Source: Bordetella genomosp. 5 | GTDB lineage: Bacteria; Pseudomonadota; Gammaproteobacteria; Burkholderiales; Burkholderiaceae_B | Direction: 5' to 3' | Assembly (NCBI RefSeq): GCF_002261475.1 | Contig: NZ_NEVN01000004.1 | Coordinates: 248,001 to 312,000, forward strand | Length of the DNA: 64,000 bases | Shown here: positions 16,996-18,362 of the stretch, piece after piece | How positions within the stretch are numbered: position 1 is the stretch's first letter | How the letters are laid out: every line of letters starts with the position of its first letter | Program-made: the position numbers and the translations under genes | Notes under the pieces: model-generated | Databases searched by the model: none | Seen by the model: the letters and a program-made list of their open reading frames with translations, nothing else | What the model was told of the DNA's origin: nothing

Positions 16996-17303
16996 GTGAC
17001 GTGAATGAAGTCATCGCGGCGGACCGCCGCAGGGATACGTACGAAGCCGGAAAGACGCTCGCGCTCGCCGGCCTGGGGGCGGCGGCGTGACAGGGGAGGG
17101 GAATGCACCCTGGAAAGACGCGCAGCAATGCACTGCGCGCCGTGGCGTCGGCCGACCTCGGAAGAAGGGGTGCCCGGGAGCGGGCAGGGAGGTCGGATCG
17201 AACGCTTACATGGGTCGCGGCTGGTGGCTTGAATGGGGCAGGGCGGATTCTACGCCATCGACTTGACGGCCCGCTTGCAGTCGCGCCGGCGGGGATGCGT
17301 GCT
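16996..17303. other. non-coding region between sulP and the ParD-like gene
   Basis: 308 bases without a supportable gene on either strand. It should contain the promoters of the divergent sulP and parD-like genes; I see no convincing -35/-10 pair for sulP. Confidence 0.5.
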
Positions 17304-17332
17304 AATATACGTTTCGTTATAAAACGTATATT
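17304..17332 (+). promoter_or_regulatory. perfect dyad (operator) before the ParD-like/MetAP operon
   Basis: AATATACGTTT (17304-17314) and AAACGTATATT (17322-17332) are exact inverted repeats around a 7-base centre. A -10-like TATAAA overlaps the centre (17318-17323), and the ATG of the antitoxin-like gene is 5 bases downstream. This is where an autoregulating ribbon-helix-helix protein would bind. Confidence 0.85.
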
Positions 17333-17337
17333 GCATC

Positions 17338-17571
17338 ATGGGCATCGTCAAAGTTTCCGAAGAAATGCACAGCGCCTTGCGCGACGCGAGCGACGCGCTG
17401 TCGCGGTCCGTCAATGGTCAGGCCGAGCACTGGTTGCGCGTCGGCATGCTCGCCGAGCTCAATCCGCATCTGAGCTACGGCGAGATCTGCAAGCTGCTGC
17501 TCAAGGGCCGGCTGCCGCAAGATGCCATCGGCATCGACACGACACAACCCATGCTCGCCAAGGTGTCGTGA
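17338..17571 (+). CDS. ParD-like antitoxin-type ribbon-helix-helix protein
   Basis: A 77-residue protein of the ParD-like family (the DUF3423-type group): MGIVKVSEEMHSALRDASDALSRSVNGQAEHWLRVGMLAE gives the beta strand and two helices of an RHH DNA-binding fold, followed by NPHLSYGEICKLLLKG. Such proteins normally repress their own operon as dimers. The gene overlaps the next one (TGATG, stop 17569-17571, start 17571), implying translational coupling. The partner is a methionine aminopeptidase, not a ParE-type toxin. The DNA-binding role is inferred from the fold and from the perfect dyad 5 bases upstream. Confidence 0.88.
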   Translation: MGIVKVSEEMHSALRDASDALSRSVNGQAEHWLRVGMLAELNPHLSYGEICKLLLKGRLPQDAIGIDTTQPMLAKVS

Positions 17572-18362
17572 TGGCGCCCAAGCATATTCCCCTCCTCACC
17601 GCGGCTGAGGCCGATCAGGCGCGCGTCGCCGCCAAGCTGGCCGCCGACGTGCTCGCCATGATCGCCGAGCACGTGCGCCCGGGCGTCACCACCGACGAGC
17701 TGGATCGCATTTGCCACGATTACATCGTGCAGCACCAGAAGGCGACCCCCGCCAATGTCGGCTATCACGGCTTTCCCAAGACGGTCTGCGCCTCGGTGAA
17801 TCACGTGATCTGCCACGGGATACCTTCCGACAAGGTGCTCATGCGCGGCGACATCATCAATCTCGACGTCGCGGTCATCAAAGACGGCTGGTACGGCGAC
17901 TGCAGCCGCATGTACTTCGTGGGCGAGCCCAGCACGCTTGCGCGCCGCCTGGTGCGCACCACCTATGACGCCATGTGCGCCGGCATCCGCGCGGTCAAGC
18001 CGGGCGCCACGCTCGGCGATATCGGCAGCGCGATCCAGAACGTCGCCGAGAACGCGGGCTACAGCGTGGTGCGCGAGTACTGCGGCCATGGCATCGGCCA
18101 GATCTATCACGGCGACCCGCAGGTGCTGCATTACGGCCGCCCCGGCGCCGGGCTGCGTCTCGAGGCCGGCATGCTGTTCACGATCGAGCCCATGATCAAC
18201 GCGGGCCGCCGTCAGACGCGCCAACTGGCCGACGGTTGGACCGTCGTGACCAAAGACCGCTCGCTGTCCGCGCAATGGGAGCACATGGTGCTGGTCACGC
18301 CCGAGGGCTACGAAGTCCTCACCGGCTGGCCCGACGGCTTCGGCGACTACGCCCCGATCTGA
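17571..18362 (+). CDS. map: type I methionine aminopeptidase (coupled to ParD-like gene)
   Basis: Removes N-terminal methionine from nascent proteins with a dinuclear metal site. All ligands of the family are visible in the 263-residue product: D99 and D110 (NLDVAVIKDGWYGDCS), H173 (CGHGIG), E206 (FTIEPM) and E237 (QWEHMVL), plus the substrate histidine H82 (VICHGIP). It therefore looks catalytically competent. The start ATG overlaps the antitoxin-like stop by one base. The context suggests a second, conditionally expressed MetAP; the housekeeping map usually sits next to rpsB, which is not in this window. That it is a paralogue is inference. Confidence 0.95.
   Translation: MAPKHIPLLTAAEADQARVAAKLAADVLAMIAEHVRPGVTTDELDRICHDYIVQHQKATPANVGYHGFPKTVCASVNHVICHGIPSDKVLMRGDIINLDVAVIKDGWYGDCSRMYFVGEPSTLARRLVRTTYDAMCAGIRAVKPGATLGDIGSAIQNVAENAGYSVVREYCGHGIGQIYHGDPQVLHYGRPGAGLRLEAGMLFTIEPMINAGRRQTRQLADGWTVVTKDRSLSAQWEHMVLVTPEGYEVLTGWPDGFGDYAPI

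Follow-up and report, generated by a model that had tools for sequence, protein, structure and literature searches.

In the 64,000-nt stretch of Bordetella genomosp. 5 DNA analysed here (the window), a gene of the ParD-like antitoxin family is directly followed by a second gene for type I methionine aminopeptidase (MetAP), and the pair forms, with a probability that we put at roughly 0.7, an autoregulated operon in which the antitoxin-family protein would act as autorepressor and switch an accessory MetAP with an unusual S1 pocket. In classical ParD/ParE modules, a repressor of the ribbon-helix-helix (RHH) type acts on its own two-gene operon, and N-terminal methionine removal is usually treated as a constitutive process. 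A conserved, predicted repressor-operator unit for a second MetAP with an altered Met-binding pocket, encountered at 83 of 153 examined loci of the family, brings regulated N-terminal processing within reach of direct tests in laboratory bacteria; a dedicated switch may exist for the step that trims the first methionine of newly made proteins. At the same time, it serves as a warning that the annotation 'ParD-like antitoxin' does not imply a neighbouring toxin.

The first gene of the pair (17338..17571, plus strand) encodes a protein of 77 aa that is recognised by the PF11903 ParD_like profile with an E-value of 2.7e-27 and 95 bits (curated cut-off 23) and is predicted to be an RHH autorepressor. 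It is joined by the one-base overlap TGATG to the second gene on the same strand (17571..18362), whose 263-aa product reaches 309 bits with TIGR00500, the profile of type I MetAP (cut-off 171.35). The latter protein retains all five metal ligands (D99, D110, H173, E206 and E237, presumably equivalent to D97, D108, H171, E204 and E235 of the E. coli enzyme) as well as the substrate histidine H82, which we take to correspond to E. coli H79. The overlap, the intact MetAP and an 11-bp dyad ahead of the pair, all of which the initial annotation had described, were confirmed on the sequence. The fold of the ParD-like protein is presumably RHH; a PDB sequence search with this protein yielded no credible relative, and one of its relatives from a Ser-type locus (defined below) gave a sub-threshold FitA-like RHH match with an E-value of 0.0015. 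The MetAP frame stays open for 468 bases upstream of its own ATG, across the ParD gene (window 17103-18362, plus strand), resulting in a mechanical ORF of 419 aa, which is probably a chance product of GC-rich DNA. A candidate for a natural ParD-MetAP fusion (L123) was dismissed, as its 421-aa ParD frame is an upstream open frame and not a fusion.

Upstream of the pair, a perfect 11-bp dyad, AATATACGTTT-N7-AAACGTATATT, with a 7-nt spacer (17304..17332) stops 5 bases short of the ParD_like ATG and constitutes the predicted operator. It includes the outer half-sites TATACG (17306-17311) and CGTATA (17325-17330) and overlaps TGCTAATAT (17300..17308, plus strand), an element picked out by eye that has no -35 match and may represent an extended -10; a consensus promoter scan of the locus found no canonical promoter. 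When the 100 bases ahead of the ATG were subjected to dinucleotide shuffling, 4 of 3000 trials attained an 11-bp arm, as did 10 of 1278 overlapping 100-bp segments of the window, and the dyad taken alone is evidence of modest weight. It becomes convincing because of the comparison with the leader of a congener (G551), in which the pair occupies the corresponding location (ParD 88%, MetAP 90%): the 42 nt before the ATG (17296..17337, plus strand, the start of the block being placed where identity begins) are identical in both, as opposed to 160 of 312 aligned columns (51.3%) further upstream. The dyad of the window does not match the TATAYGNNNCRTATA class strictly and represents a variant of it, similar to the sites in Pandoraea (L196-L212).

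Across genomes, the leaders of MetAP-linked ParD genes contain TATA half-sites spaced by 11 and 22 bp. Their strict arrangement, TATAYGNNNCRTATA, was found within 100 nt upstream in 55 of the 83 MetAP-linked leaders, namely in 16 of 30 belonging to Asn-type and 39 of 53 belonging to Ser-type MetAPs, and is missing in the other 28, that of the window included. It occurs in none of the 48 ParE-linked leaders, in none of the 20 leaders of loci with neither partner and nowhere among 280,049 further bases of these loci, the shuffle expectation being at most 0.01 per group. In a further set of named organisms and plasmids, the strict operator was present in 52 of 83 loci and missed in 31. A 26-bp form with three half-sites was encountered at 10 places in 398 genomes, each time ahead of a MetAP-linked ParD at a distance of 12-22 bp, and its reversed control at none; as the strict 26-mer does not match the variant site of the window, this count carries no information on such variant sites. 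In L009, L010 and L012 the motif precedes the start by 93-97 nt, and L008 shows no more than a near match, so that close contact between operator and gene is not a constant feature. Dyads are likewise frequent in the leaders of ParE-linked ParDs, 9 of 48 having an arm of at least 8 where 0.5 would be expected, and these are other dyads, such as CTACAATTGTAG. Hence, the dyad as such is general to the PF11903 family and its sequence is the specific part. Taken at the level of sequence, these comparisons support a predicted operator that is conserved in, and specific to, MetAP-linked ParDs, and they agree with the proposal that the pair has an operator of its own. A wider regulon in the host genome was rejected: the 15-mer, with up to 1 mismatch, occurs at 2 places compared with 6 for its control, and the 25-mer spanning the outer half-sites at 4 places, one of them the operator itself, compared with 4 for the control. 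A second exact match to this 25-mer, with a GC-richer middle, was noted in the same genome at G000:C4:320343-320367.

Among 151 genomes from the host's family, 57 contain PF11903, as do 109 of 398 from its phylum. Examination of 64 of the 65 family rows and 90 of the 117 phylum rows, one of which was shared, yielded the 153 loci, at which the next gene on the same strand encodes MetAP in 83 cases, a ParE-type toxin in 48 and neither in 22 (two of these being contig ends); none of the 153 has both. Two of the toxins belong to PF15781 (ParE-like_toxin) by Pfam, and a profile derived from these two identified the others. The genes overlap, under automatic start choice, in 57 of the 83 MetAP pairs and 42 of the 48 ParE pairs. 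In a tree of the ParD proteins, based on few columns and featuring long branches, a fully supported branch separates all 48 ParE-linked members from the MetAP-linked members and three orphans. The set of named organisms and plasmids, which comprises the best 80 of 561 relatives plus three plasmids and was fetched with MetAP-linked ParDs as query, shows MetAP directly after ParD in 82 of 83 loci, the exception being an orphan ParD in Verticiella; the genera include Pandoraea, Burkholderia, Pseudomonas, Massilia, Acidovorax, Aromatoleum and others. Moreover, 172 plasmid records, three of which were opened, match the ParD-like protein, as do four IMG/VR contigs, each with a MetAP nearby and one of them divergently arranged, while a phage collection contained no match. 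The search of genomes for the same gene pair, which the initial annotation had called for, thus reveals a widespread arrangement that extends beyond a few strains.

Small RHH genes and dyads are each common, the latter illustrated by the 11-bp arms elsewhere in the window, and one might suspect a coincidental neighbourhood that received its toxin-antitoxin label from annotation. This suspicion is refuted because the pair recurs, at 83 of the 153 loci, with a specific operator and with two MetAP types under that one operator, and we regard it as exceedingly improbable.

The paired enzymes appear catalytically equipped, as all 83 retain the five metal ligands, the two active-site histidines that were scored and the tryptophan of the pocket, and they deviate in the S1 pocket. 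Asn62 of the window enzyme, which places it in the Asn type, aligns with the cysteine of PDB chain 1yvm, which we take to be an E. coli-type MetAP with Cys59 as its S1 cysteine, and Tyr179 occupies the position of E. coli Phe177. According to the alignment, none of the 83 paired MetAPs has Cys at the Cys59 position, 30 having Asn and 53 Ser; a motif reading of the same position gives Ser in 53, Asn in 27 and no readable residue in 3, and in the set of named organisms and plasmids the residue was unreadable by motif in 16 of the 82 loci with MetAP. Phe is likewise absent from the Phe177 position in all 83, which is occupied by Tyr in the Asn group and by Met in the Ser group. In the Ser group, Gln additionally replaces Tyr62 and Asn replaces Cys70, and the Ser type (Gln62, Asn70, Met177) is, as far as sequence defines it, a further class of MetAP. 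Such a pocket may confer a changed substrate specificity. As to the recruitment of MetAP, the tree favours separate Asn and Ser groups (2 changes), and the alternative of a single clade was not rejected (p-AU 0.249).

The S1 residue was also read in 23 unpaired MetAPs of pair-bearing genomes, with Pro in 9, Asn in 5, Cys in 5 and Thr in 4 by motif; the alignment, in which one row is shifted, counts 8 Pro and 6 Asn. An S1 Asn as a mark of pairing was ruled out by its presence in 5 of these 23, and Asn and Tyr occur together in five unpaired MetAPs as well. Several genomes have, by our reading of the neighbours, Asn-type copies that presumably adjoin rpsB or glnD, a neighbourhood that we take to be the usual housekeeping place of MetAP. 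Ser-type MetAPs, set apart by an identity to the query of 61% or more (55% for the match that follows), are accompanied by ParD in 33 of 34 cases in 398 genomes. The lone Ser-type enzyme (L302, in G429) is devoid of both a ParD-like gene and the operator.

Proline at the Cys59 position was observed in the unpaired MetAPs of L167, L168, L170, L174, L175, L177, L178, L182 and L183 and also in the PDB chains 4juq and 4fo7. The active-site cysteine is therefore less universal than stated in a passage of PMC11773813, where it is described as the most conserved active-site residue of MetAP1 and an Asn subtype in proteobacteria is credited to Bala et al. 2019. With that Asn type, as outlined there, the window enzyme shares Asn at the position of E. 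coli Cys59; it differs in being an accessory copy under a ParD-like gene.

This accessory status follows from the counts of MetAPs over the family cut-off. The host genome has a second MetAP above the TIGR00500 cut-off at G000:C12:34875-35621, 61% identical to the paired one, which removes the objection that the paired copy might be the only map gene. This second copy adjoins a frame that we take to be glnD. At least two MetAPs were counted in 45 of 45 chosen pair-bearing genomes, and therefore the paired MetAP is an accessory copy in these. The paired enzyme could accordingly be pictured as a regulated backup, in which a MetAP with a remodelled pocket is made when the housekeeping enzyme is inhibited by natural inhibitors, oxidation of pocket cysteines or metal shortage. 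Such a function is consistent with the fact that the paired MetAP is never the sole one in the 45 genomes, with the absence of both Cys59 and Phe177 from all 83 paired enzymes, extended by Gln62 and Asn70 in the Ser type, and with a patchy spread over many genera and plasmids. However, the window enzyme retains Cys73 and other cysteines, and the combination of Asn and Tyr is common to the five unpaired MetAPs. We consider the backup function doubtful; it represents a role for the autoregulated operon and not an alternative to its regulation.

Alternatively, the pair might resemble a toxin-antitoxin module more closely, with the ParD-like protein binding and inhibiting MetAP, free MetAP slowing growth by over- or mis-trimming N-termini, and the complex repressing the operon with conditional cooperativity. 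PF11903-PF15781 pairs are alike in protein family, in having the antitoxin gene first, in mostly overlapping genes with tight spacing and in upstream dyads, and the two kinds of partner never coincide at one locus. The near-constant company of ParD for Ser-type MetAPs and the altered S1 pockets point in the same direction, and relaxed substrate specificity has reportedly been claimed, in the title of the work by Bala et al. of 2019, for a new type 1 MetAP class. The MetAP pair nevertheless differs from the PF11903-PF15781 pairs in its housekeeping-type enzyme partner, in another operator sequence and in the C-terminus of its ParD. ParE-linked ParDs end in a conserved Y-x-F-G-like tail, which was absent among the MetAP-linked ParDs listed and from the consensus lines. 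Conservation of the ParD core is higher in MetAP-linked (3.64 and 3.40 bits per column) than in ParE-linked members (2.77), while the last ten columns show 1.42 (17 sequences) and 1.23 bits (28) in the former compared with 1.86 (30) in the latter. Further evidence against inhibition of a toxic MetAP comes from the Asn-type copies beside rpsB or glnD, since housekeeping use argues against intrinsic toxicity of the Asn pocket, from the Ser-type MetAP that has no ParD, and from a PADLOC search in which neither protein found a match. On balance, this toxin-antitoxin-like mode is unlikely.

With respect to the defining features of type II toxin-antitoxin systems, the layout of overlapping genes on one strand with the antitoxin gene first is apparent from the sequence; the partner is a TIGR00500 MetAP and not a member of a toxin family, and the tail that marks the ParE-linked members is lacking. 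The pair is therefore not called a type II toxin-antitoxin system, though it may work like one. The initial annotation had placed MetAP in the toxin slot of such a module: with 83 MetAP and 48 ParE partners and never both, the shared slot is real, while MetAP as a toxin was not borne out. Neutralisation of MetAP by the ParD-like protein found no backing, given the missing and variable tail, the Asn type in 5 of 23 unpaired MetAPs and the Ser-type enzyme that dispenses with ParD. The suggestion that methionine removal is conditional survives in part, as conditional expression is well supported by sequence and conditional inhibition is not. It also appears rather improbable that the pair, on Pseudomonadota chromosomes and plasmids, represents a branch of toxin-antitoxin systems whose effector is a functional MetAP with a remodelled S1 pocket. 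In that case, the ParD-like protein would repress the operon and, in addition, keep the enzyme inactive, and its loss under stress would re-edit the N-termini of the new proteome, as a conditional switch of methionine excision.

For the autoregulated operon, we envisage that the ParD-like protein would bind as RHH dimers to TATA-type half-sites spaced about one helical turn apart, thereby covering the -10 region and holding its own operon low, and that the TGATG overlap would couple synthesis of MetAP to that of the ParD-like protein. Repression would be relieved when the repressor is lost or titrated, be it through proteolysis, as happens with antitoxins, or through the partner protein. Upon release, the second MetAP with its non-standard S1 pocket would be made beside the housekeeping enzyme and would supplement or alter N-terminal methionine removal.

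The predicted RHH-type repressor of its own two-gene operon resembles ParD/ParE as well as RelB/RelE, for which autoregulation involving RelB is described in passages of PMC3948609. Unlike these systems, the ParD-MetAP pair has no toxin of known kind, and toxicity and complex formation are putative in its case. A full-text literature search, with subscription papers and preprints largely outside its reach, retrieved no paper on a ParD_like-MetAP pair; the terms 'methionine aminopeptidase' and 'ribbon-helix-helix' both occur in PMC3948609, in the passages retrieved, for unrelated ORFs, and a term search of the main texts of the toxin-antitoxin survey PMC2701414 and of TASmania (PMC6504116) gave no occurrence of 'aminopeptidase'. 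RefSeq-derived annotation already puts both gene names side by side on three plasmids. Hence, annotation of the parts is already known, and the present analysis adds the recurrence of the pair, its putative operator and the pattern of pocket residues.

Several loci lie at the margins of this arrangement. In L021, L022, L023 and L268, an orphan ParD-like gene akin to those linked to MetAP has neither a neighbouring MetAP nor the strict operator. Weak PF11903 matches in L063-L066, L162 and L163, near which neither a ParE nor a MetAP neighbour was found, feature a longer conserved C-terminal part (YQAS..HPG...GQF.NG.F) and are perhaps a separate family. In the divergent IMG/VR contig (L348:1-1185), MetAP lies on the minus and the ParD-like gene on the plus strand with a TATAYG operator between them, and this MetAP carries Thr and Phe at the two pocket positions; a third MetAP type may accordingly be tied to the same putative operator.
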